Part shown: positions 4,064 through 45,139 of the stretch, piece by piece
Layout of the letters: each line of letters starts with the position of its first letter
Position numbering within the stretch: the first letter of the stretch is position 1
From: a virus
Virus record (IMG/VR): IMGVR_UViG_3300023110_001773
Location: 101,638-165,637 of that record
Strand: one strand, 5' to 3'
Length of the DNA: 64,000 nt
Made by a program: the position numbers and the translations under genes
Notes under the pieces: model-generated
The model's input: only the letters and a program-made list of their open reading frames with translations
What the model was told of the DNA's origin: nothing
Database searches by the model: none

Positions 4064-7000
4064 TTAAAAGTTTACTACAGTATCCGCCACATAATCTTCC
4101 GCAAAATATGTTAAGTCTACTGTGAATGATTGTGATATGAGACTACCCTCATCATCAACATTAAATATATCCGACTTCGTATTTGTAGATTCAAATGCAG
4201 TCAAATCATTTAATCCAATGGTGTCAGTCGATAAAGTTGTAATATCAAAGTTGTTTATCGAATCTCCAGCAGAGAAAGTTTGTGCTGGAATGACTCCAAT
4301 ATTTAGTCCATCGATTGTATCCGCAGTAGAGAATGCGTCAGATAAAGTTGGTTGAGCCTCTATAGAAACTGTTTGAAGAACTCTTAGAGAATCGGACTGG
4401 ATGGTGGTTATATCAAATGATGTTGAATCATCTACGTCAAAAGTATCTGTCAAATTCTTTCCAAACGATTCTATGGACAAGTCTTGTATAACAGCAACTC
4501 TATTTTCTTGTAATTTTTCTTTGAAAAGTTCAACCGCATCATCTTCCATCGTAACGGAATCATCTACTAGTCTTCCTCTTTCAAAGAGAATAGATGTGTC
4601 ATCCAACTCTACAGAATCAGATGGATTTCTAAAGAATACGAAAGACAGAACAAGCGAATCATCGATTAGAATCGTCTCCCCACTTGGAAGGGTTCTTCTT
4701 ACATAATCGTCATCTGGATTGGCATGCTGGAAGAAGTAGGGATCGCCAAGCGCTGTGCCGTCAGAAGTAGCATAGAGAGTATCTACTGCACTGGCGCCTC
4801 CCGTGACTTCAATCTCAACATTCAACGAGGTAATTACATCGTTAATTTGGAATAGTTCTGTTCCTCTCTCTGGGTCTTGATTAAGGAACTGTACATAATC
4901 CTCCAAGAAATAGTCTGTTGCATATCCACCAACGTTGGTGGAATCGAACACCATTTCAATATCTTTATAAGGATTTCCTAGTAACACATAATCTTCTAAG
5001 AAGTAGTCACCAGTTTGAAGTCTCTCCACATAGTCATCATTTTCATTTGGATATCTAAAGAAGTATGGATCACCAAGCGTTGAACCATCAGAAGTAGCAT
5101 AGAAGTTTTCTACTTCTGTACCCTGAAAGGTATATGGCCCAAACTCTGAGTTAGCTCCAACGCCATCTGATCTGACAGCATGTATATCCAGTTTATTAAC
5201 AACACTTGCAATATTTTGTCTATCAGCAAAACCATCGCCTGGGAATATGGACTCTATGACATCGTTCTTAGAAAAATCCCTAGTAACATCTTCGTCAGAA
5301 ATTAATACCGTTTCAATATCTGGATACTTGAAGAACATGTAGACATCTGTTTCGACATTAAAATTGCCAGAGAGATCAACAGATTGTCTTATTTGTAAAT
5401 TACCAAAAAGTCCAAATCCAATTGGGTGAGCAGCTCTTCTTACATAATCATTCCACTCTGATTGTGGTCTTTCGCTTTCAATTTCATAAGAGAAGTTTTG
5501 ATAAATTCTATTATCAAACAATCTGTTTGCATCCGATAAGAAACTTCCTGCGTCTTCGTATACTCCAGCAAGTAGTGCATTAAATCCAGTTGTTAAATCA
5601 ATAACACAAGTATTGCCAGTATTCGAAGTAATATTGAATTGGAAGTCGGCACGGAAGAATCCAACACCAACTGCGATAATATCAAAAGCAGATGGATATC
5701 CATTGGAGTCAACTTTTGATATTTTGATATATCCTTTATTATCAATGCCAGTTAAAGTATAATCTTCAGCAAAATAATCAATAGCATAGACACCAAGAAT
5801 GTCTCCAGTCTCGGAAATTTTAAATGTTTGTCCTACTTTAAAACCACCGTTGGTTGTAGAAGAACCTTCTGCAATAGAATTAAATGATGCAGAATTAAGA
5901 ACTCTGGATGGATAGGCTCGAATATTAAAGAACCCAGACTCCCCCTCAAGAGTAATATAAGTTAAAATAGAAGCAACATTTATTGCTAAATCTGGTCTGT
6001 TGTTATATCCTCTACCCTGTTGATTAGCAACAAAGACAGTTGAAGTAATTGTACCATCTGTTAGTCGAGTATCAATTACTGCATTAGAAGAAATGGTGTC
6101 TAAAGAATTTGGTCGTATTGTAACACTTGGGTTTGCACTAAATCCAGTACCGCCATCCAAAATTAAAACATTATCAATCTTACCAGAAGATATTTGATCT
6201 ACTTTAAATTTTACAGATGGCGTACCACTTCCACCAAAAAATGTGGTGGGTATTTCAATTATTTCGTTTGGTTGAAAGTTGGTTCCATTATCGACCACAG
6301 TAATATTGGAAACAGAATTTCCAGAAATAACAACAGTGAATTCTCCTCCAGAACTATCCGTTGTTTTGTGCGAATCAAAACTTACAAATCTAAATTTAGA
6401 AGTCCCATTTAGTTCATCACCAGATTCATGTGTTGGGCCAGTACCAACAGAATCGGTGGTTCCTTCGTTCACCGTGACGTATATTTTTGAGTTTGCTTTT
6501 ACATATGTGCCGACTTCATACACGGTATTGTTAGTATATTCAACATCAAGATAACTTTCATAGTCTGCATCGGTTACAGTGTAAATCCCGTCTACAACAG
6601 AAGAACTGGGGTTTTCAAATGATCCATTAGAACCAGTACCAGTTATTGTAGATATTTCGCCAGATACATAAGCTAGCAGTTGTTCGTCATATCCAGATTG
6701 ACCTACTCCAGGCCCAACGATATCGAAAGTGGCGGGAAGATCAAGAGTCAATTCATATACTTGTGGGGAAGTATATGATATCTTTTTAACTCGCTGAACA
6801 GTAGTAGTTTTTTTATAGTAATTTGTTGCGGCGCCTTCGGATACAGCATAATGAATGTCAATTCTTTTTCCCTGCAAATCATCTACATTTGGGACTTGAG
6901 CCTCATAAACCTTTACGACATAATCTTGTCTCCATCTGTTTGAGGACGGCCTTAAAACAAATTGTCCAGAATTTCTTAAAGAAACATTTTCATTATACAA

Positions 7001-7927: not shown

Positions 7928-9833
7928 CGCTTACTCTTGGAACCATTGTTACGTTCAAACCTTTGCGAATATTATTTACAACATCTTCGGCAGCATCATC
8001 TAGTTGAAGGATGATGTTTCTCGCTGGTTGTGCAAAAACAGCATAATCCGCTTCCTCTGTTGTTCTAACAAGAATATCGGTAGAGATATTTTTAGAAGAT
8101 TCGTGTGGAGTAGAGACAACTCTGAAAATACTATTTCCAGCACCACTAATTGAGTCTATTCTCAAATCAACTATATCAAGTGCTCCAGTATCATAGTCAA
8201 TAGTCCCAACATTTTTGTCTACAATTTCGCCCCTTATTTTTGTTTTCAATTGCAGTATACCCCTACCACTGTACACTGGTGCGATAACATCTGGGTTTGG
8301 TTTGTCGCACAAAAATACTTCTACTTTAGAACCGTTTAAATCAGCAGTAAAATAATTTGATCTGATAGACAGAGGTAAAATTTTGTTATTAAATTTTGGT
8401 TCATATCTCGCAACACCACCTAAGACTGGATTCAATTTCTTAATCAATCTCATTTCAATTCCAGTTGCAACGATAGATTCTGAAATAGCATCGATATCTT
8501 TTGTTAATCTAGAATAATAAAAATTCTTTTTTAGAGCATTTACGTTCGTCTCAAAATGATTTTCTGTTCTTTGAACAATTAGTGACTTCAAAGAATCCGA
8601 TGACAACGTGGTTAATTTTTGGTCGTATGTAACGCTCGCATTGATACCAATATAAACATACTCTGGATCAACAAATTCTGGTGTCAGTCCAATAGGCATT
8701 CTATCATTAAGAACAGAATTTCTTATATTTTTTTTATCGTCTTCAGTGATAACAAAATTATCTTGCGGCTGCATAGAAATAAAAACCTTTCCATAAATGG
8801 GTGGGATATTATCTTCTCCGCCCCAAACGGCAACCGATTTAATATTTGGATTAGACTGTTTTATGGTAGATTCGTAGTCAGTTTTAGTTATTGTTCTACC
8901 CTTAGAAGCATTAAATCTTGGTGCATTGAATCGAATACTATCGGCTGTTTCTGCGGCAAATCCACCAGCAGATGCAGAAATAAGTTCACTACTTACACTT
9001 TCGCCAACGGCAGAAATTGCAGACGGGTAATTAAAAACTCTAGCACCATTTCCGTCTGCACCATTTGACACAACATAATCAACGATTACAATGTTTCCAA
9101 CTTCTAATGATTTGCCAAGAACATCATCACCAAAAACGATTTGATAGTGTCCATCAGTTCTTTCATCTAAATAGAAAACTTTAGATGTAGATGTGACATC
9201 CAAAACATTGTCAACGATGTTGAAGGTTTCTGTAGATGCGTTGCGAGTAGAAGTCTGAACTTTGACCCTGATTGTCGTGGTGTCGATGTTATCATTTTCA
9301 AGAACAATTGGGCCAGAAGTAGTGGTGTTAGTAATAATCTGAGAAGTTGTGGTTCTAGTTCCTTCCACCAACCGTATGTTTTCAAATCTAAAAGCAGATA
9401 CCCCATCGACAACACTCTTGGTCACCGTATAATCATCTTGGGGGACAAACGATCTACTTTTTCCATTCACTGTGCTGGAAAATACACTGTCTCTTGGCAA
9501 CTGTAATGTACTACTTGTATAAGAAGCCGGGGGTCGAACAGTAAGATTAATTGTTGCTACGGAAGACCTAGTTGACCTTGGAGTATAACCCATAGTCTTA
9601 GCAATAGATACTACAGAATTTCTTCTTACAGCAGAATCAAGAAATGCCTCGTTTGCCACCATGTGGGCCAACACTGCATTATAATGTGTATTATAAGCAA
9701 GTAGGTCTACCAAAGTAGATAGACCAGAAGCTTCAAAACTATAATCAGAAAACTCGTCCTGATTTTGCAAAAAGACTCTTAGATTCTCTCTAATGTCAGC
9801 ATAGTCTAATTCGGTGACATTTTTAACTGGCAT
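7920..9833 (-). CDS. gp6: baseplate wedge protein gp6
   Basis: The product has 637 residues, close to the 660 of T4 gp6. The N-terminal segment FEASGLSTLVDLLAYNTHYN, followed by VANEAFLDSAVRRNSVVSIAKTMGY, is typical of gp6/gpJ-type wedge proteins that form the inner ring of the baseplate. It starts 13 bp after the PAAR gene and overlaps the gp7-like gene by 8 bp. The start ATG has AGGA 9-10 nt upstream. Position in the 25-PAAR-6-7-8 string supports the call. Confidence 0.88.
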   Translation of the reverse strand: MPVKNVTELDYADIRENLRVFLQNQDEFSDYSFEASGLSTLVDLLAYNTHYNAVLAHMVANEAFLDSAVRRNSVVSIAKTMGYTPRSTRSSVATINLTVRPPASYTSSTLQLPRDSVFSSTVNGKSRSFVPQDDYTVTKSVVDGVSAFRFENIRLVEGTRTTTSQIITNTTTSGPIVLENDNIDTTTIRVKVQTSTRNASTETFNIVDNVLDVTSTSKVFYLDERTDGHYQIVFGDDVLGKSLEVGNIVIVDYVVSNGADGNGARVFNYPSAISAVGESVSSELISASAGGFAAETADSIRFNAPRFNASKGRTITKTDYESTIKQSNPNIKSVAVWGGEDNIPPIYGKVFISMQPQDNFVITEDDKKNIRNSVLNDRMPIGLTPEFVDPEYVYIGINASVTYDQKLTTLSSDSLKSLIVQRTENHFETNVNALKKNFYYSRLTKDIDAISESIVATGIEMRLIKKLNPVLGGVARYEPKFNNKILPLSIRSNYFTADLNGSKVEVFLCDKPNPDVIAPVYSGRGILQLKTKIRGEIVDKNVGTIDYDTGALDIVDLRIDSISGAGNSIFRVVSTPHESSKNISTDILVRTTEEADYAVFAQPARNIILQLDDAAEDVVNNIRKGLNVTMVPRVSDE

Positions 9834-23619: not shown

Positions 23620-24218
23620 TGATGTACTTCCTTATTTATAACATCTTTAAGCGGTGTTGCAACAGACTTCATATTGTCTGTCAGTCTAACGAATGGACGG
23701 TACTTGGTTATACACATAGACGCATCTTCAAGCAATATGTCATTCGCATTCATATCGACAAAGTTAAAAATCTTATCTAAGATTGTCATTGTCTCTATAT
23801 TAATTATATTACCAAAAAAGAGACGAAATGTCAAGGGGTGTTTTCCATTAATTGAAATAAATGGGTCGGCGATTTCTTCCTTTTCCATGTCGAGTAGAAT
23901 TCTGTCAATATCTTGTTTAAACTGATATTCTCTTTTGACTTTTCTGTTCTGCCACTGATCGTATCTTCTTGCAGCATCAACATCAAACAACCCACCCCAT
24001 TTCTCTCCAGAGACAAAATTAGCAACAAGGAAATTAATTATTTCCTCACGAGAATAATCTCTGGCAAGTTTTTTAATAGAAACGAGGTCTTTTCTTTTAC
24101 GAAATGTTTCTTCTTTGACTCTTACTTTTCCTTTATACTTTACTATGTCATAATTCTTGGTTGTAAAGTGCAATTTGATTGCAAGGTAAAGTCGATAAAC
24201 TTCAAACGGTTCTATCAT
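23616..24218 (-). CDS. gp59: helicase loader gp59
   Basis: The product has 200 residues (T4: 217). VYRLYLAIKLHFTTKNYDIV followed by KYKGKVRV matches T4 VYKLYLMIKQHMNGKYDVIK. RKDLVSIKKLARDYSREEII and the D-A-x-x-Y repeat also follow T4 gp59. gp59 loads the gp41 helicase on gp32-covered forks. Start and stop overlap neighbours by 4 bp in the T4 order 33-59-32. Confidence 0.9.
   Translation of the reverse strand: MIEPFEVYRLYLAIKLHFTTKNYDIVKYKGKVRVKEETFRKRKDLVSIKKLARDYSREEIINFLVANFVSGEKWGGLFDVDAARRYDQWQNRKVKREYQFKQDIDRILLDMEKEEIADPFISINGKHPLTFRLFFGNIINIETMTILDKIFNFVDMNANDILLEDASMCITKYRPFVRLTDNMKSVATPLKDVINKEVHQ
23633..23640 (-). promoter_or_regulatory. T4-type late promoter in the end of gene 59
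   Basis: Exact TATAAATA on the minus strand, 13 bp before the ATG of the 63-residue gene. It would give late expression of that gene and gp32. Confidence 0.55.
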
Positions 24219-24481
24219 ATTGGCAGTTTAGATGTCTTCTTTGCTTTTAACAAATTGAGGTTTTGAGCCTCGGCAGTAATCTTTTCTTTTAAAGACGGTG
24301 TAAGAAGTTTCTTAATACTTTCAATTTCTACTTCATTGCGAACACAAAAATCTGTTAGTACGTCAATATAATTTTGGCCCATACTAGCCTTTCTTTCAAT
24401 ATGTTGAGAAAACTCAACAGCACTAGAAAACTGTTGATTGCTTATTAGAAACTCATCGGTTTTTTTAACTTCTTCAATCAT
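24215..24481 (-). CDS. gp33: late transcription coactivator gp33
   Basis: The product has 88 residues (T4: 112). The C-terminal part LKEKITAEAQNLNLL followed by a basic end matches T4 IIEKIQSEAIDENLL, the part that contacts the RNA polymerase flap. The central segment YIDVLTDFCVRNEVEIESIK matches the T4 SYLEATTAFLEENSI region. gp33 bridges the sliding clamp and polymerase at TATAAATA promoters, which are frequent in this window. It is followed by gene 59 with a 4-bp overlap. Confidence 0.85.
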   Translation of the reverse strand: MIEEVKKTDEFLISNQQFSSAVEFSQHIERKASMGQNYIDVLTDFCVRNEVEIESIKKLLTPSLKEKITAEAQNLNLLKAKKTSKLPI

Positions 24482-25334
24482 TACTTTTTTCCTTTTGCAT
24501 CAAAAAATCTTCTTTCCAGTCCTTAATATATTTTAGGACATCATATTCACATTCGATAAAAGGACTATCACAGATAGTCTTTTCTGCCTCGCCTGGTCTA
24601 TCAAATTCATGGACAATGGGGTGATCAAAAGCTTTTGCTACTTCCAAAATACTCACTGGTTTGCCCCTACCCAAATTAACATGTTTTGTTTTTCTTCTGG
24701 TTTGCAATAGTTTTAACATGCCATCAACCACATCATAAACATGGGTAAAATCTCTTTCTTTTTTACCACTACCGAAAACTCGTAGTGGTTCATCATTTTC
24801 TACACATCTTTTAAATGCCCTGACTACAGTACTATATTCTCCGTAGTCTGCTTCTCTTGGCCCATAAACATTATAGAAGTATAACATATGATACTTAACT
24901 TTGTAAAGAGATTCATACAAATTTAATATCTCTTCACATGTATATTTACTAAAGGTATACGGATTAGAATCTTTGTTAGAAAATTTTGTGCTTGATGATG
25001 CTGCAAAGAAAATTGGAACTTTTAATTTTCTGGCCCACTCACATACAGTAAGAGTGGAGTTTACATTATTTTTAATAGTAATGTAGGGATTCTTGTGTGA
25101 CATGCGAACTCTGGGAGTTGCAGCAAGATGAAAAATTGCATCATAATTTCCAGCAGGAAAAACGTCTGCAACATCTTGATGTAGGTACTGAACTTTTTTG
25201 TGTGGTATCTTATAAGAACCAACACTCATGTCATCCACTACCAAAACATTTTGATCATGTAAGAGTAACGCCTCTACCAAGTGGGAACCAATGAAACCGC
25301 ATCCACCAGTAACAATAAAATTGTGTTTTGCCAT
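24474..25334 (-). CDS. NAD-dependent sugar epimerase/dehydratase (extended SDR)
   Basis: The product has 286 residues. The NAD-binding motif GGCGFIGSHLVEALL is at residues 10-24. The catalytic Y-x3-K is in YTFSKYTCE near residue 125, with upstream AASSSTKF. LAATPRVRMSH and YFYNVYGPRE are typical of UDP-glucose/glucuronate epimerase-like SDRs. It overlaps gene 33 by 8 bp and follows the cell wall hydrolase gene directly. It may feed the sugar modification genes further along, though it is not in their operon. Confidence 0.87.
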   Translation of the reverse strand: MAKHNFIVTGGCGFIGSHLVEALLLHDQNVLVVDDMSVGSYKIPHKKVQYLHQDVADVFPAGNYDAIFHLAATPRVRMSHKNPYITIKNNVNSTLTVCEWARKLKVPIFFAASSSTKFSNKDSNPYTFSKYTCEEILNLYESLYKVKYHMLYFYNVYGPREADYGEYSTVVRAFKRCVENDEPLRVFGSGKKERDFTHVYDVVDGMLKLLQTRRKTKHVNLGRGKPVSILEVAKAFDHPIVHEFDRPGEAEKTICDSPFIECEYDVLKYIKDWKEDFLMQKEKSND

Positions 25335-25916
25335 TTAATACCTATAAAATATGTGCGAATCAAATACCGCACTCACTTGCAAACTATCAGACCATTTTGG
25401 TTTTACATAATCTGCGTGATAGTATATTGCTCCATTTGTATTGTCTTCGTGGTATCCTTTTATAATTTGTCTAGAGACTTCAACAATATTATCAAAAGTT
25501 TTCCAATCAGTTATCTTATCTGATTTGCCATCACAATACCAACTAAATTGACATTGGTGTTTCATTGGAACCTTTTTACCTTGGGACAACCACCACTTGC
25601 TCAATTTAGCTTGATACACCACTTCACATATGGTATTGGGGTATTTGTCATTTTTTACTCTGTTAATTGTAACATGAGCAACAGCCATTTGTCCAGCGAT
25701 ATCTTCGCCTCTTGCTTCAAAATAAATGTTTTGTGCAAGACAGAAAACTTCTTCTGGATCGGGTAGTTTTTCTTTTATCACGGCTGGTGTGACAACAACA
25801 GTTATTGGTTCTAATGGTGGTTTCGTGGGGGTTGGTTTAACAGATAGTACTGCGACTGTTGGGGTAAGAATTAAAACTAATGCAAATGTCCAAGATAAAA
25901 CCTTTGGCGATACCAT
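25335..25916 (-). CDS. SleB-like cell wall hydrolase with N-terminal membrane anchor
   Basis: The product has 193 residues. A hydrophobic segment at 7-27 (VLSWTFALVLILTPTVAVL) and a Pro/Thr-rich spacer precede a Hydrolase_2/SleB core. FCLAQNIYFEARGEDIAGQM holds the catalytic Glu of the N-x-Y-x-E-A-R-G-E motif. CQFSWYCDG and NGAIYYHADYVKPKW follow. This family cuts peptidoglycan and is the likely lysis enzyme in many marine T4-like phages. The anchor could serve for SAR-type or Sec export. It begins 18 bp behind the tmRNA, with AAGGAG upstream. Confidence 0.85.
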   Translation of the reverse strand: MVSPKVLSWTFALVLILTPTVAVLSVKPTPTKPPLEPITVVVTPAVIKEKLPDPEEVFCLAQNIYFEARGEDIAGQMAVAHVTINRVKNDKYPNTICEVVYQAKLSKWWLSQGKKVPMKHQCQFSWYCDGKSDKITDWKTFDNIVEVSRQIIKGYHEDNTNGAIYYHADYVKPKWSDSLQVSAVFDSHIFYRY

Positions 25917-25933: not shown

Positions 25934-25969
25934 AAAAATGGGCCCGTTGGATTATAAGGTGGAACCCAT
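25934..25969 (-). terminator. intrinsic terminator candidate at the tmRNA 3' end
   Basis: An 8-bp stem (ATGGGTTC / GGGCCCAT, two U-G pairs), 16-nt loop and five T on the minus strand. The stem could instead be part of a pseudoknot of the tmRNA coding piece. Confidence 0.5.
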
Positions 25970-25981
25970 ACCCCACTAGCC

Positions 25982-26014
25982 TTAAGCGGCTAGAGCATAA
26001 ACGTCATCGTTTGC
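25982..26014 (-). other. tmRNA proteolysis-tag reading frame, tag ANDDVYALAA
   Basis: The resume codon GCA at 26014-26012 is followed by AAC GAT GAC GTT TAT GCT CTA GCC GCT TAA, giving ANDDVYALAA. It resembles the E. coli tag (ANDENYALAA). It keeps the terminal LAA read by ClpXP. The stop codon lies in the loop of the P5 hairpin, as in other tmRNAs. Confidence 0.92.
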
Positions 26015-26092
26015 GTTTACTTTAGGTTGGCACTTTGCCAGTCAATCAGTCTCACCTTTCCTAGACAATCGCAGTCGAACCTGTTCACCCCC

Positions 26093-26152
26093 ATCAAAAG
26101 CACACTAGGAAGTCTTAATTTCGACACTGTACGTCCGTGCCTAATGTGCTTA
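26093..26152 (-). other. intervening segment of the permuted tmRNA precursor
   Basis: These 60 nt join the encoded CCA end of the acceptor piece to the 5' end of the coding piece. The two ends pair (AAGCACA with TGTGCTT, then TAGG with CCTA), which brings the two processing sites together. It would be removed by RNase P and 3' processing, as in known two-piece tmRNAs. Confidence 0.85.
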
Positions 26153-26219
26153 TGGTGGAGGTGGGGGGAATCGCACCCCCGTCCTACAATCTTTCAGTCC
26201 ACTTCAACGACCGATTCAA

Positions 26220-26227
26220 TATTTATA
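26220..26227 (-). promoter_or_regulatory. T4-type late promoter of the tmRNA
   Basis: Exact TATAAATA on the minus strand between the nuclease gene stop (26237) and the acceptor piece. With T4 spacing, transcription would begin near 26214, at the expected 5' end of the precursor. Confidence 0.82.
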
Positions 26228-26236
26228 ATAACATGA

Positions 26237-26911
26237 CTAGGCAGCAGATGTCAATACCTCAGCCTCATATAAATCACGACATTCTAGTAAATAATCCACA
26301 TAATCGTCTCGTTTTTTGACAAATATCTGTGGTTCATCGTCTTGAACACCAATAATTACTACGCTTTTGTCAATAGGAATGCCAGTACGTTCCTCAAACA
26401 TAATTGCATAGGCAGAACACTGTGCAAAGTAGTTTTGAATATACTGTTCTTTCTTTGGTTTGGATGAGGTTTTGAAGTCTATGATGGAGAGTCTGCCGTC
26501 AAATTCTGCAATGCAGTCACACTGTCCGGCGAGACGGAGATGTTCACTGTATAGAAACTCTTCGACACAATGGATGTTGTCGATTCTATCAATGATAGGT
26601 TTCATCTTATTAAACATATCAATTTCAACAAAAGAGAGTTTGTCAAAACTCAACTCTTTGTTATTCACATAATCTTCGCAAACAGCGTGAATTTTCGTAC
26701 CACGAACAGAAGCTTGTTTGCTAATTCTGTTTGCCTTTTCTTCACCGACACGTTTGCGCCAAGCCTTGATGCCTGGTTTACTTTTGTGGCCGAGGACAGT
26801 GGTGACAGACGGGAATCTGACACCACTATCGGTTTTGTACATTCTTTTGCCTTCATAGTTTTCCCTAATTAACGAGGGAAGACTATAACTTCTTTCAACA
26901 TGATTAAACAT
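26237..26911 (-). CDS. PD-(D/E)XK exonuclease (RecB/Cas4/MGME1-like)
   Basis: The product has 224 residues. The nuclease motifs are in order: RGTKIHAVCEDYVN (His/Glu region, 71-84), E118 in CVEEFLYS, D132 in AGQCDCIAEF and D145-F-K147 in LSIIDFKTS. Q161-x3-Y-like helices follow (QNYFAQCSAYAIMFEE). No iron-sulfur cysteine set of Cas4 is seen. Marine T4-like phages carry such a nuclease near gp32/phoH; a role in DNA recombination or host DNA breakdown is likely. It has its own sigma70-like promoter. Confidence 0.85.
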   Translation of the reverse strand: MFNHVERSYSLPSLIRENYEGKRMYKTDSGVRFPSVTTVLGHKSKPGIKAWRKRVGEEKANRISKQASVRGTKIHAVCEDYVNNKELSFDKLSFVEIDMFNKMKPIIDRIDNIHCVEEFLYSEHLRLAGQCDCIAEFDGRLSIIDFKTSSKPKKEQYIQNYFAQCSAYAIMFEERTGIPIDKSVVIIGVQDDEPQIFVKKRDDYVDYLLECRDLYEAEVLTSAA

Positions 26912-28250: not shown

Positions 28251-29102
28251 TTATACTTTTAAACAATCAGCTAAATGCTCTCCCCACTCTATGTGAGCCT
28301 GTAAACACGGATGTCCTCTGGGCATTCGCTTGTCTCCATGTTTATCATTATATTCAGAGAAAACCTTATCCGTTATCATATGTCTATTTATCTCTTTTTC
28401 GATAAAAAGAAGATTATCTTTGTATTCATAATCAAGGTGTTTAAGTTGTTCATGTTTCTTCAAATAAACTTTTTCAAAATATTGTACATTAATTCTTTCA
28501 AGACACTCAACAAAAATAACAGGTATATTATTCCTGTTAGCAATATACAAAATGTCTCTGAGATTATTCATATACTCATAAAAATGAATCCATGAGTGTC
28601 TTTCTCTGAAATATTTTAAAGCAAACTCATGATCACCCCCTCTATCGTGATGGGTGGGAACGACTCTATTGAAAGCACATCCCCTATATCTTTCGTCTAT
28701 GTTACTCCTGCCAATTTCTGCCCAATGTTCTAGTGAATGAAAACCAACTTCTCGAAAAAACCCAGTAGTTCCAAACATACAGAGATGTGTATCAGAAATT
28801 TTTTCATGAATTACATCATTGAAAAATTGTGATCGCATATTATCAATAGAGTTGCCCCTTTGACCTCTATTGTAAACATTAGTTATTCCCAATTTATTAC
28901 AAAGGTGTTGTGGATACGCAAGTTGTTTTTCTATCTTTTCGTGTTTTTGACTCAATAACTCACGTTGGTCTGAGTCTTCGCATTTTCCAATTAGGGGCAA
29001 AAATTCTTCATTTGCTAGTTCTTCTCCAGCAGTAAAAGAACATCCATAAAAATGAATACCATTTATCTTTATTACGTCATCCAAGTATTTTACGGGGTAC
29101 AC
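28251..29102 (-). CDS. SGNH-type hydrolase (class A)
   Basis: The product has 283 residues. Block I FYGCSFTAGEEL places the nucleophile Ser at residue 22. RGQRGNSIDNM fits the Gly/Asn blocks, and the C-terminal MPRGHPCLQAHIEWG can supply the catalytic His. SGNH enzymes remove acyl groups from or hydrolyse esters of polysaccharides and lipids, or act as O-acyltransferases. It overlaps the carbamoyltransferase gene by 13 bp and ends the modification cluster together with a small ORF. The substrate is not visible. Confidence 0.75.
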   Translation of the reverse strand: MYPVKYLDDVIKINGIHFYGCSFTAGEELANEEFLPLIGKCEDSDQRELLSQKHEKIEKQLAYPQHLCNKLGITNVYNRGQRGNSIDNMRSQFFNDVIHEKISDTHLCMFGTTGFFREVGFHSLEHWAEIGRSNIDERYRGCAFNRVVPTHHDRGGDHEFALKYFRERHSWIHFYEYMNNLRDILYIANRNNIPVIFVECLERINVQYFEKVYLKKHEQLKHLDYEYKDNLLFIEKEINRHMITDKVFSEYNDKHGDKRMPRGHPCLQAHIEWGEHLADCLKV

Positions 29103-30520
29103 ACTTTTACTCCATAGAAATTTTCAAATACATCAGCATCAATTCTATTATTTACAATTGGTTTACCCTTTATGTTCAAACTAGTATTGAGCAACATTGG
29201 ACATCCAGTTTCCTCATACCACTTAGTAAGCAACACATATAATTCTGGATGATGTGCATAACTTACTGTCTGCACTCTACTAGTACCATCCTTATGTACT
29301 ATTGCTGGATATTTTTCTGGTTCTTTACACCTAACAACTTCTTGCATGTATGGAGAATTAAAAAAGACATCAACATCGAAGTGGTGTTGTGCATCACACT
29401 GTCTAATCACTGGAGCAAAAGGTCTAAACTCCTGTCGTCTTTTTATTGAGTTTACTTTATCTTTCATATCTTGGCCTCTAGGATCAGCCAACAGAGACCG
29501 ATTACCCAAAGCACGAGGGCCAAATTCAGCTCTACCAGAAGCTACTCCGACCATCCCAGATGTCATCAATTCATGAAGTACTGCATCGACTGGATATTCT
29601 CCTTTGATGTCGTGTCCCAAATAGGCAGTTTTAAAATCAACTCTCTGTTTTGTACCAGCAAGAACTGCTCCAAGAGAAGACCCAGCATCGCCTGGATTGG
29701 GCATTATCCAATATTTTCTAAAAAAATCTGGTAACAATCTATTGGCAAGACAGTTTAGAGCACATCCACCCATAAAAACCAAATCTCTTTTGCGAGTTAG
29801 TTCTGCTGTTAAATGTAAAAGAGCACCCAACCATTTTTCATATACGGATTGCACTCCAGCAGCAACATCAAAATAGTCTTCTGGTTCTAATTCTGGTCTC
29901 CACCATTTTACTCCACGATGAAATGGTGTTTTGTTTGCAAGTAAATCTGATATTTCCTTTGAAAATCTATATTTGTCTCCATAGGCAGACATTCCCATTA
30001 GAATATATTCATCCTCATTTGCCTTCAATCCAACCCTATCAGTAAAAGCAGAGTAGAACAAACCGAGAGAATTTGGATATTTCCTAGACCAAACTAATTT
30101 GTCATTATCCCAGATGGAAGTAGTAACCCACTCACCAATTGCATCAATAACAAGAGTAGCACAATCATCAAATGGTCTAGTGTAATACCCAGCTGCAAAA
30201 TGACTACGGTGATGATTCCCCCACTTTATTTTGCACGTTGGTTGATATTTTAATTTGTCAAAATAAGACCTTGGATTTACCCAAGGATTTGGTTGTCTGG
30301 AATACAACCTTCTAGTAGCTTTGAGTATGGGGTTCTCATACCAGTACATTTTATCTGGTTCCCCATACTGCAAAGCATCATTCAACAAATTATCATTTAA
30401 ATATTTGTCATTCTTGTAACCAGAGTATCTTTCTGCATGGCTAGCAAAAACTATCTCCCCATCTTTTATGACAGAAAGAGCTGCGTCATGATAACCAGCA
30501 CTGATCCCCCAATTAATCAT
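29090..30520 (-). CDS. NodU/CmcH-family carbamoyltransferase
   Basis: The product has 476 residues. The N-terminal ASKHA-like start MINWGISAGYHDAALSVIKD, the His cluster GNHHRSHFAAGYY (H103, H104, H107), MGGCALNCLANRLL and the C-terminal GRAEFGPRALGNRSLLADPR are the family signature. These enzymes pass a carbamoyl group from carbamoyl phosphate, through carbamoyl-adenylate, to a hydroxyl of a sugar or small molecule. It is known from several marine phages. The start overlaps the stop of a 40-residue ORF. Confidence 0.93.
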   Translation of the reverse strand: MINWGISAGYHDAALSVIKDGEIVFASHAERYSGYKNDKYLNDNLLNDALQYGEPDKMYWYENPILKATRRLYSRQPNPWVNPRSYFDKLKYQPTCKIKWGNHHRSHFAAGYYTRPFDDCATLVIDAIGEWVTTSIWDNDKLVWSRKYPNSLGLFYSAFTDRVGLKANEDEYILMGMSAYGDKYRFSKEISDLLANKTPFHRGVKWWRPELEPEDYFDVAAGVQSVYEKWLGALLHLTAELTRKRDLVFMGGCALNCLANRLLPDFFRKYWIMPNPGDAGSSLGAVLAGTKQRVDFKTAYLGHDIKGEYPVDAVLHELMTSGMVGVASGRAEFGPRALGNRSLLADPRGQDMKDKVNSIKRRQEFRPFAPVIRQCDAQHHFDVDVFFNSPYMQEVVRCKEPEKYPAIVHKDGTSRVQTVSYAHHPELYVLLTKWYEETGCPMLLNTSLNIKGKPIVNNRIDADVFENFYGVKVCTP

Positions 30521-42273: not shown

Positions 42274-43767
42274 TTAGTACTCTGCTAATGGATCGTCTAT
42301 GTTTTTATTGTCTGGTTTCAACACCCACCCCTCTTCCTCTGCAATCTTTTTCAGATCGGGGTCATCGTCATATTGTCTTGTACTGTCACCATCAACCAAC
42401 TTTACGGCAATCGTCTCTGTATCTGGAATAGTATCAACCCAGTCAGTAAGAATTTCTGGAAATACATTGAGTGACTTATTTCGTCTCTCATCATACTGTT
42501 TGAAGAAAGTTTTAAAGTCTCTCCACAGAGTCATCTTGTCGCTGGTGCGTCTGTGTGGTGCATCAACTGTAACAAGATAGTCAATCAGTCTTTCGATGCT
42601 TGCCTTCTCGAAATCGTGCCACAGTGGTTGCTCTTTGACTGCGTTATACCAATCTTCCAACTGTTCCCGCAGATAGTCTTTTATATGATCTGGGAGTGCG
42701 AGCGGTGATTGAAAACTTGGAAAACGTAACAAGTTCACACTAACAACAGGTGCTTTTGTGCCAGTATGTAACTTCATCTCATAGACATCATCAAGGAACT
42801 CGGTGATACTAAACAAGCACAGACTATTGATGGTCATCATAATATTCAGTCCCTTCAGATTACAGTTGTCCATAATCTTGTACATGTTTTTCTTCCATGT
42901 ATCGTAGTGCAGTCCGTCACGAATGTAATCCGCTTGTAGTCCAGTCGCTTCACAACTAGTATACAAATGAAAGTCATTGACACCTTGACTTCGTTCAATT
43001 AGTCGGTCAATCAAACTATCTTTTGCCATGAGATTTGAGTTAATAGCAAAACGCATCTTGCTGGGATTATCATTGAACCAGTCGAACAACTTCCACACTT
43101 GGTCAGACATCAGTGGTTCACCACCAGTAATACGCAACTCTTCTAGACTGTCAGATAATCCGTCTTCCCACCAATCCCAAAAAGCCTTAATGTATGGATT
43201 GTCTTCATCTTTTGCATATGGTTCTGCCCATGCGCCGTCTTGTTGAAACGCAGCTGCACCATCCGACACCATGTTCTGATACGCACCCTTCTTGGTGATA
43301 TCTTTTGCCCATGTTGTAGAGAAAGATGCATTGCAATAAGAACAAGCCAACTGACAAGTACGGTCAAATGCAATCTCAAATGTTTTCAGATCAACACTTT
43401 CATTGTGATCCATTTCATATGCTTTCTGTAAGTCTGCATTTGAATAGATGATAGATTTAAACACACGATCAGACACGGCATCTTTGCCCATGTCTTCCAC
43501 TTTCCAGCAGTACTCACATTCTCGTGGTCGTTCTCCTCTCTGCATCATCTTACGCATCGCCTTCTTGTGGCGAGTGTTATGAATAGCAGATGGGTCTACA
43601 GCAATCTCTTCTAATGGAATCTTATGTGCTGGAGGGTGATGACAAGAAGCGGTAGTACCACTGCCTAGCCAAGTTGTAGCATTATACCACTTAGCACCAC
43701 AGAAACTTTCAGATTTTGTATCAAGAATATCTTTTCGATACTTAATCAAGTCAAATTCTTTACTCAT
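42274..43767 (-). CDS. twitch-domain radical SAM enzyme, subgroup B (1)
   Basis: The product has 497 residues, the longest of the seven. Its N-terminus differs from subgroup A: SFCGAKWYNAT and SCHHPPAHKIPLEE, with RGERPRECEYCWKVED. The cluster motif is C138-x3-C142-x2-C145 (RTCQLACSYCNAS). ELRITGGEPLMSDQVW and LYTSCEATGLQADYI follow. The C-terminus has a variant of the shared motif (KSLNVFPEILTDW) and a tail of about 50 acidic residues (DDDPDLKKIAEEEGW) missing in the others. 8-bp overlap with the preceding paralog. Confidence 0.9.
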   Translation of the reverse strand: MSKEFDLIKYRKDILDTKSESFCGAKWYNATTWLGSGTTASCHHPPAHKIPLEEIAVDPSAIHNTRHKKAMRKMMQRGERPRECEYCWKVEDMGKDAVSDRVFKSIIYSNADLQKAYEMDHNESVDLKTFEIAFDRTCQLACSYCNASFSTTWAKDITKKGAYQNMVSDGAAAFQQDGAWAEPYAKDEDNPYIKAFWDWWEDGLSDSLEELRITGGEPLMSDQVWKLFDWFNDNPSKMRFAINSNLMAKDSLIDRLIERSQGVNDFHLYTSCEATGLQADYIRDGLHYDTWKKNMYKIMDNCNLKGLNIMMTINSLCLFSITEFLDDVYEMKLHTGTKAPVVSVNLLRFPSFQSPLALPDHIKDYLREQLEDWYNAVKEQPLWHDFEKASIERLIDYLVTVDAPHRRTSDKMTLWRDFKTFFKQYDERRNKSLNVFPEILTDWVDTIPDTETIAVKLVDGDSTRQYDDDPDLKKIAEEEGWVLKPDNKNIDDPLAEY

Positions 43768-45139
43768 CCCAATCCTCTAACAAATGTGCATACTGTGGAA
43801 AAGTGTTTCTAAAATCTTTCTGTCTTCTCTTGTCATACTCGGTTATGTACTTGACAAAATCACCTCTATGTTTATCAGCGACTTCGGTAATTCTAAGATA
43901 CTCACAGAATCTTTGTATTTGGTCAAACTCTTCAAGATAAATTCTGGCAAACTTATCTGGCGAGTAATACTTCAACCAAGACTCCGCCAAGTTTTCAATA
44001 TCACTAGCATAAGATATTCTCGTTATCTTATCAAGTAAAGTGCATTGCAAGTGAGGGGGAAATCTAAGATAATTCACACTTAGGGGTACTCTGTTATGTG
44101 CAAGGTCTCTATTGAATTCCACTCTGAGTTTCATAATGTCTTCGATGAAGTTACAAAACGTGGGCAGACTGAGAATGTTGAGTGTTGTCATGATTGCAAC
44201 ATTGGCATCAGTCTCATTCAAAACTCGTTGTACGTTTGCATACCAGTATCCATAATCCAACCCATCTCTGGCATACTCTGCCTGTCTACCCGTTGCCTCA
44301 CAACTTGTGTAAATTTCAATTTGTTTTACCTTGTCCTTCACCTTGTTCACAGAATCAATAAGTTTCTGTATGAGTCGAGGATCAGTTCCCAAATTACTAT
44401 TGATTGCAATAGACAGTTCTGGTTGGGCGTTATCGTAAATATAGTCCAACACCTTCCAGACATCTTTACTCATGGTGGGTTCGCCACCAGTGATTCGGAA
44501 AACTTTTAGATGCGGAAGTGCTTCTGGAAACCAATCCCAGAAAGCATCAACATATGGATTGGGATCAGAGTGTTTGTAAGGAAACTTTTCTGTCTCTCTC
44601 AAATAGTCTAAATTGTGAGAACCAAACTGCACTGGATACTCACCATTAGACTCAATGTCTTTCATCCACGTTGAGGATATCTCTGGTGAACAATAAGCGC
44701 AGGCAAAGTTACATGCGTTACTAAAAGACACCTCAAGGTAAGTCGGGTACACATCTTCCGTGGGATCACTGGTTGCAATGACATCAACCTTGTCCCAAGC
44801 CCACCAATCAGAAGTCTTGTAATGACGATCAGAAAAATGATCCTTGTCCTGATCTTCTATTCTCCAACAATAGTCACACTCACGAGGCCTCTCTCCATTA
44901 ATCATTTTTATTCTTTGCTGTTTTTTATAATTGCTATTGTGCAAAGCAGCAGGATTGATTTTAATCTCTGCAACAGGGATTTTGTGTGGAGATGGATGGT
45001 GACAAGAATGATTGTATCCGTTCTGCAACATCAAAGTAGTTTGCAACCACTTAGCAGAACAAAAAGACGGACTAATCTCGTTGATCTTAATTCGTTTTTC
45101 TTTTAGTACTTCAATCCAGTGTTCATTGGTTTGTGTCAT
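43760..45139 (-). CDS. twitch-domain radical SAM enzyme, subgroup B (2)
   Basis: The product has 459 residues and is the closest sibling of the next gene. It has SFCSAKWLQTT, SCHHPSPHKIPVAEIKINPA, and NGERPRECDYCWRIEDQDKD. The cluster motif is C143-x3-C147-x2-C150 (NACNFACAYCSPE). KVFRITGGEPTMSKDVW and IYTSCEATGRQAEYARDG follow. It ends FRNTFPQYAHLLEDW. The CHHP and CEATG signatures set subgroup B apart and suggest a different substrate from subgroup A. Confidence 0.9.
   Translation of the reverse strand: MTQTNEHWIEVLKEKRIKINEISPSFCSAKWLQTTLMLQNGYNHSCHHPSPHKIPVAEIKINPAALHNSNYKKQQRIKMINGERPRECDYCWRIEDQDKDHFSDRHYKTSDWWAWDKVDVIATSDPTEDVYPTYLEVSFSNACNFACAYCSPEISSTWMKDIESNGEYPVQFGSHNLDYLRETEKFPYKHSDPNPYVDAFWDWFPEALPHLKVFRITGGEPTMSKDVWKVLDYIYDNAQPELSIAINSNLGTDPRLIQKLIDSVNKVKDKVKQIEIYTSCEATGRQAEYARDGLDYGYWYANVQRVLNETDANVAIMTTLNILSLPTFCNFIEDIMKLRVEFNRDLAHNRVPLSVNYLRFPPHLQCTLLDKITRISYASDIENLAESWLKYYSPDKFARIYLEEFDQIQRFCEYLRITEVADKHRGDFVKYITEYDKRRQKDFRNTFPQYAHLLEDWDE

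Follow-up and report, generated by a model that had tools for sequence, protein, structure and literature searches.

The final 64,000 nucleotides of the 165,637-base IMG/VR virus record IMGVR_UViG_3300023110_001773 (positions 101,638 to 165,637; hereafter the window) carry on the minus strand a complete circularly permuted (two-piece) gene for transfer-messenger RNA (tmRNA). Rfam family RF04321 (tmRNA_permuted) matches positions 26215-25982 over model positions 1-213 of 213, with 102.9 bits (gathering score 47 bits) and an E value of 6.1e-19, and ARAGORN reports a permuted tmRNA with the tag ANDDVYALAA followed by a stop. The original prediction, made from the letters of the window, had proposed a permuted tmRNA in a T4-like phage and had named a full-length minus-strand hit to a permuted Infernal/Rfam model as its supporting result; that match was obtained, above the cut-off. 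The gene is made up of the following parts.

26153..26215 (-): tRNA-like 3' piece, with one strand of the helix that joins the pieces, the T arm, the acceptor 3' strand CACCTCC and an encoded ACCA (Rfam match, pairing parse)
26093..26152 (-): intervening segment of 60 nt, its ends in a 12-bp helix (parse, folding)
25982..26092 (-): mRNA-like 5' piece, from the acceptor 5' strand GGGGGTG through GGTTCGAC to the tag stop (Rfam match, parse)
25982..26014 (-): tag reading frame, ANDDVYALAA plus TAA (ARAGORN)
25934..25981 (-): stretch behind the tag stop, probably with the 3' end of the mRNA-like piece (extent of the beta_tmRNA model match, folding)

The permutation is evident in the gene order, with the tRNA-like 3' piece and its encoded CCA preceding the mRNA-like 5' piece. 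All seven acceptor pairs form (GGGGGUG/CACCUCC, G3-U included), as do the five pairs of the T stem. The 12-bp helix at the ends of the 60-nt insert gives it a folding energy of -17.5 kcal/mol (z -2.45; equalled by 3 of 200 shuffles), and the whole precursor folds with -96.9 kcal/mol (z -2.77; equalled by 1 of 200). The encoded CCA, the G3-U acceptor, the T arm, the tag and a joining segment with pairing ends had all been predicted, and Rfam, ARAGORN, the pairing parse and folding bear them out. Among the overlapping models of the same clan, the best subtype match is beta_tmRNA, whose 81.9 bits lie just under its cut-off of 84. The beta_tmRNA match extends to 25917, and the 3' boundary at 25934 that had been proposed is plausible. 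Folding of the 61 nt behind the tag does not exceed that of shuffled sequences (z 0.08). A terminator scan behind the tmRNA found no intrinsic terminator, and the transcript may therefore continue into the next gene; in the sample of phage relatives described below, 9 of 32 representatives have a T run at most 110 nt beyond the tmRNA.

Three candidate promoter elements stand directly upstream of the gene.

26220..26227 (-): exact T4-type late promoter octamer TATAAATA (sequence match, conserved in relatives)
26225..26230 (-): sigma70 -10 hexamer TATTAT, overlapping the late octamer (consensus match)
26249..26254 (-): sigma70 -35 hexamer TTGACA, located within the exonuclease gene at its 3' end (11/12 consensus matches together with the -10)

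The tmRNA had been predicted to lie under a late promoter. This stands to the extent that the octamer is exact and that the phage encodes gp33 and a gp55 homologue, but the promoter is not simply late: TTGACA-18-TATTAT (26254-26225, 11 of 12 consensus matches, spacer 18) overlaps the octamer, and such composites recur in relatives. According to PMC2988020, T4 late promoters have a TATA box of 8 bp, placed roughly one helical turn upstream of the start site, and lack a -35 element. The promoter in the window shares the box and differs in having a -35 element, and its hexamers lie within the 16-18 nt separation expected for sigma70. Because TTGACA stands 18 nt before TATTAT, we call the promoter composite rather than plain late; judged by its motifs, it looks readable by both the host sigma70 polymerase and the gp55/gp33 polymerase.

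Relatives were collected by two pattern scans of IMG/VR (11 and 47 loci) and two neighbour-gene searches (14 and 49 loci), between which some contigs recur. The 87 usable phage rows with an ARAGORN permuted call, window included, were reduced to 32 representatives below 93% identity. In the first set the window locus counts twice (as the window and as L013), and 9 of 63 phage records were left out of the counts for lack of an ARAGORN permuted call. The pattern-scan loci excluded on this ground are L015, L027, L037, L038, L041, L043, L057 and L059; L061 (phage C48C1), retrieved via its exonuclease, likewise gave no ARAGORN permuted tmRNA.

The exact octamer lies just upstream of the tmRNA in 25 of the 32 representatives, and it occurs in 1.1% (637/57,569) of AT-matched 55-nt windows from the same phage loci. 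It is present in 44 of 54 phage rows of the first set as against none of 61 bacterial permuted tmRNAs, which look mostly alpha-type and are richer in GC. The bacterial genes (RF04321) resemble the phage gene in gene order, acceptor, T arm and tag, and differ upstream, where a box resembling TATATT is common. The gap between the octamer and the Rfam match was measured in 21 genes and is 3-7 nt in 18 of them (two further genes, L001 and L286, have no exact octamer); because T4 late starts lie about one helical turn past the box, the expected start of a late transcript is only a few bases away from the tRNA-like piece. The window holds 12 copies of TATAAATA, compared with 4.4 expected (1 of 100 shuffles has as many). 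Four of the other 11 are intergenic, 5-51 nt before an open reading frame (ORF) on the same strand, one abuts a gene start and six fall inside ORFs; among the genes so marked are those for the DNA end protector and for two baseplate proteins, a tube cap and a wedge subunit. Separately, one exact copy at 55877-55870 (-) begins 2 nt after a TTGACT-17-TAAACT stretch. A called ORF of the plus strand spans it, the nearest 300 nt contain no called gene start on its own strand, and it perhaps marks an unannotated transcript.

The sigma70 half of the promoter is conserved together with the octamer. TTGACA-N14-22-TATAAATA has a single occurrence in the 165-kb record, at the tmRNA, and TTGACA-N15-19-TATWAT is found at 8 places as against 2 for the reversed control pattern. 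A -35 with 5-6/6 matches precedes the octamer by 17-21 nt in 20 of the 25 octamer-bearing representatives, compared with 6 of 75 other octamers in these loci (at 16-21 nt). Two geometries occur. In class A (7/32) the -35 is 17-18 nt before the octamer, and TATAAA itself would serve as the -10. In class B (13/32) the distance is 20-21 nt; of 19 distinct regions of this class, 18 have TAT immediately before the octamer, giving TATTATAAATA, so that a -10 TATTAT again lies 17-18 nt from the -35. Conversely, the TTGACA-N15-19-TATWAT sites carry TATAAATA in 13 of 13 cases next to a tmRNA and in 3 of 36 elsewhere in the loci, a split in which the tmRNA label was set by sequence pattern and a few sites may be mislabelled. 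Since the -35 is enriched at tmRNA octamers and the octamer is enriched at tmRNA sigma70 sites, both motifs seem to be kept by selection.

The RNA itself is also under constraint. A strict pattern parsed 25 of the 32 representatives (L001, L002, L009, L062, L251, L294 and L305 did not fit and are not counted), and all 25 have 7/7 acceptor and 5/5 T-stem pairs. Both-sided changes are seen at acceptor pairs 5 and 6 and at T-stem pairs 2-5: acceptor pair 5 is GC, CG or AT, acceptor pair 6 is TA or CG, and T-stem pair 2 is GC, CG, AT or TA. Covariation in relatives had been put forward as a test of the gene, and this pattern argues in its favour. A looser parse, which takes the best of several offsets, recovered all seven acceptor pairs in 28 of 30; in the two misses, L026 and L044, the 3' strand was misplaced, and both show 7/7 under the strict pattern. 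Every one of the 32 tags is 9-15 amino acids long, ending in LAA (30), IAA (1) or VAA (1), and the tag of the window ends in ALAA like those of at least 25 of the 32. For a tree, 75 of 94 sequences (32 phage, 62 bacterial) could be trimmed automatically; the 19 dropped include phage L294 and L305 and the probable beta-type bacterial L182 and L308. Over 190 columns the 30 phage rows fall on one side and the 45 bacterial rows on the other with support of 100/100, a contrast between phage and mostly alpha-like bacterial rows whose base composition differs. A class-level bacterial sample yielded one permuted gene in 75 genomes at E up to 1e-15.

A comparison of the tag with candidate hosts had also been suggested. 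The identical tag occurs in 106 genome_contigs stretches; the titles of the 80 listed among these include many Lysobacter, Luteimonas, Dokdonella and other Lysobacterales and some other gammaproteobacteria. G001, the sole tag-matching genome checked, has a sub-threshold permuted match of 36.1 bits. We therefore rejected the tag as a means of naming the host. A different tag, ANDERFALAA, is found in L294 (2172-2432) and L295, whose tmRNAs lie in the T4-like slot described below and match beta_tmRNA with 130.5 bits. The bacterial locus L182 carries the same tag, and it is possible that a beta-type host gene replaced the phage tmRNA in the same slot.

The genes around the tmRNA define this slot. 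Read along the minus strand, the tmRNA is preceded by PhoH and the exonuclease and followed by cell wall hydrolase, epimerase, gp33, gp59 and gp32, with the following neighbours.

26237..26911 (-): upstream neighbour, PD-(D/E)XK exonuclease (phrog_298; family match)
25335..25916 (-): downstream neighbour, cell wall hydrolase (Pfam Hydrolase_2; family match)
24215..24481 (-): gp33, late-transcription coactivator (family match)

Homologues of the T4-like core set gp23, gp32, gp33, gp55 and gp59 are present. The gp55 homologue is 53% identical, and the major capsid protein 73% identical, to the counterparts in phage Melnitz; judged by these proteins, the phage is T4-like and a relative of Melnitz. 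A near-identity search of a phage collection with 24 kb of the window returned no match. When tmRNA loci were compared with seven proteins of the window, 49 of 53 held at least one slot gene, always on the tmRNA strand, and the four without one (L014, L026, L046, L049) are short loci. Among loci found via gp33, 30 of 49 hold both the exonuclease and gp33, and the tmRNA lies between the two in 24 of these 30: in 20/20 where gp33 is at least 56% identical to that of the window and in 4/10 where identity is 44-46%. The tmRNA therefore appears steady in its slot among near relatives and patchy further out.

The tmRNAs of mycobacteriophages Bxz1 and Wildcat and of Bacillus phage G are presumably one-piece genes. 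The available text of PMC4131195 describes these phage-borne ssrA genes, and the word "permuted" is absent from the paper. PMC9004378 reports that tmRNA is carried by 402 of the 18,146 phage genomes it covers and that 53 of the 133 unique structures are in two pieces, and PMC11915505 counts 79 unique bacteriophage tmRNA sequences. The original prediction had presented a permuted tmRNA in a T4-like phage as new. This does not hold: PMC9004378 published the permuted two-piece tmRNA of the T4-like phage Melnitz in 2022, and the records of Melnitz and of Pelagibacter phage Mosig annotate SsrA in the same slot. The Melnitz gene (MZ577097; RF04321, 113.4 bits) follows PhoH and the exonuclease, precedes gp33, gp59 and the gene for the ssDNA-binding protein, and stands behind a TTGACA-17-TATAAATA composite; it differs in its tag, ANDNYVPVDYALAA, in a much longer insert and in that the Melnitz annotation shows no cell wall hydrolase on the way to gp33. 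In Mosig (MT647606; RF04321, 93.6 bits) SsrA lies between the exonuclease and a late promoter accessory gene and encodes the tag GEDNFALAA. In the literature searched, which leaves most subscription journals aside, and in the text available from it, we found no report of a late or composite phage-tmRNA promoter. The conserved composite promoter thus seems to be the new and testable part.

The best explanation, which we consider probable, is a two-piece tmRNA held in a fixed slot behind a composite early and late promoter and serving ribosome rescue and tagging throughout infection. Onto the observed anatomy, conservation, slot and promoter motifs, general knowledge of tmRNA and T4 allows a scheme for timing, start, processing, charging, tagging and benefit to be placed. 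The gene is kept between the exonuclease and gp33 genes. Early in infection, host RNA polymerase with sigma70 would use TTGACA-18-TATTAT; later, the gp55/gp33-modified polymerase would use the overlapping TATAAATA. The transcript would start close to the base at which pairing in the tRNA-like piece begins. The insert would be excised by tRNA-processing enzymes of the host, host alanyl-tRNA synthetase would charge the tmRNA via G3-U, and host SmpB would deliver it. The phage tmRNA may then free ribosomes stalled on broken messages all through infection and tag the truncated products with ANDDVYALAA for ClpXP-type proteases of the host, and the phage would benefit from recycled ribosomes and amino acids. 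Whether this extends across a clade of T4-like phages we regard as evenly balanced: the permuted tmRNA would be a standing part of takeover, with a purpose-built overlapping sigma70/late promoter in two geometries that each preserve both halves, securing trans-translation from entry to lysis while the host chromosome and its ssrA are destroyed.

Several points weigh against a composite promoter and its use throughout infection. The promoter elements are consensus matches. The composite is not universal, since 7 of the 32 representatives (L001, L016, L018, L026, L030, L034 and L286) lack the exact octamer and 5 more have it without a good -35; Mosig (L001) has neither upstream. L034 carries AATAAATA in place of the octamer, and A at -13 occurs at nine T4 sites according to the available text of PMC2988020. 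L030 and L286 have the octamer with one mismatch, and nothing octamer-like was seen in the upstream sequences of L001, L016, L018 and L026. The octamer gap is 11 nt in L058 and 20 nt in L023 and L294. Because the representatives are related phages, the cases counted cannot be treated as independent. The bacterial controls, 61 in number, come from a single phylum sample of 70 loci, 30 of them the best-scoring and 40 picked by us, of which 9 had no ARAGORN permuted call. Judged by tags and sequence, they look mostly alpha-type, with few beta-type and no cyanobacterial genes, and their median AT content is 0.47 compared with 0.68 in the phages (at least 0.6 in 12/61). A search of the 165-kb record, which may be incomplete, found no SmpB even with E allowed up to 10; its control detected SmpB in 12 of 14 genomes and above the cut-off in 10. 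Host SmpB is therefore presumably used.

The tmRNA might instead be a counter-defence part that replaces the host tmRNA or offsets stalling caused by RNA-cutting defence toxins. The argument is a general one, phage tRNAs having been proposed to evade tRNA-targeting defences (available text of PMC10264068), and supply at all stages would fit it; since nothing in our analysis separates it from general ribosome recycling, we rate it as doubtful, though the best of the alternatives. That the gene is purely late, with TATAAATA alone of importance and the TTGACA boxes leftovers or chance, is unlikely. The octamer-bearing representatives that have no good -35 fit this reading, as does the T4 late promoter with its TATA box and no -35 (PMC2988020, in the text available), and two other octamers of the window lie 36 and 5 nt before the baseplate tube-cap and baseplate wedge genes. 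It does not account for the -35 at 20 of the 25 tmRNA octamers as against 6 of 75 others, or for the added TAT by which class B keeps a -10 at 17-18 nt.

More improbable still is an early sigma70 gene in which TATAAATA is merely an unusual -10. It would explain the 11/12 match, and it was proposed for Melnitz: PMC9004378 finds an early promoter upstream of ssrA and, for that reason, suggests that host proteins are tagged early, its methods taking BPROM sigma70 sites as early and seeking late sites by BLASTN with TATAAAT. This is the sole timing proposal for a phage tmRNA that we found. Because TTGACA-17-TATAAATA stands in Melnitz, the early reading of that promoter looks incomplete, and the octamer at all 13 tmRNA-adjacent sigma70-like sites, compared with 3 of 36 others, together with its retention in five representatives that have no good -35, argues against it. 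Chance acquisition of a functionless host gene is hardly credible, given the conserved slot, the compensatory stem changes, the absence of the octamer from all 61 bacterial genes and the separation of phage and bacterial rows in the tree. We therefore favour the composite promoter: conserved early and late elements predict supply at all stages, which speaks against tagging of early host proteins only and for rescue throughout infection. The prediction is testable by an RNA time course in a cultured isolate, and the locus is a natural example in which two promoter-recognition systems may share a single -10 region.

The cis-regulatory RNA found behind the tmRNA varies from phage to phage. Melnitz differs from the window in having a glutamine riboswitch after the tmRNA (L062, 10399-10447), separated by 8 nt from the point where the alpha_tmRNA match ends; in the window no glutamine riboswitch scored over threshold. 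A second one, in L044 (1292-1340), begins 2 nt after the alpha_tmRNA match. Because of this downstream position the target of the riboswitch could be the genes behind it and not, as stated in print for Melnitz, the tmRNA. L009 has a manA RNA element (4101-4308) whose start is 11 nt past the alpha_tmRNA match, and in Mosig (9371-9578) one lies about 3 kb downstream of the tmRNA. Adjoining the tmRNA locus on the same strand is a nucleotide-sugar epimerase gene (24474-25334), and a NodU-like carbamoyltransferase (29090-30520) and a weak radical SAM match (43760-45139) are also on the tmRNA strand; these three genes perhaps serve the modification of surface sugars or metabolites.
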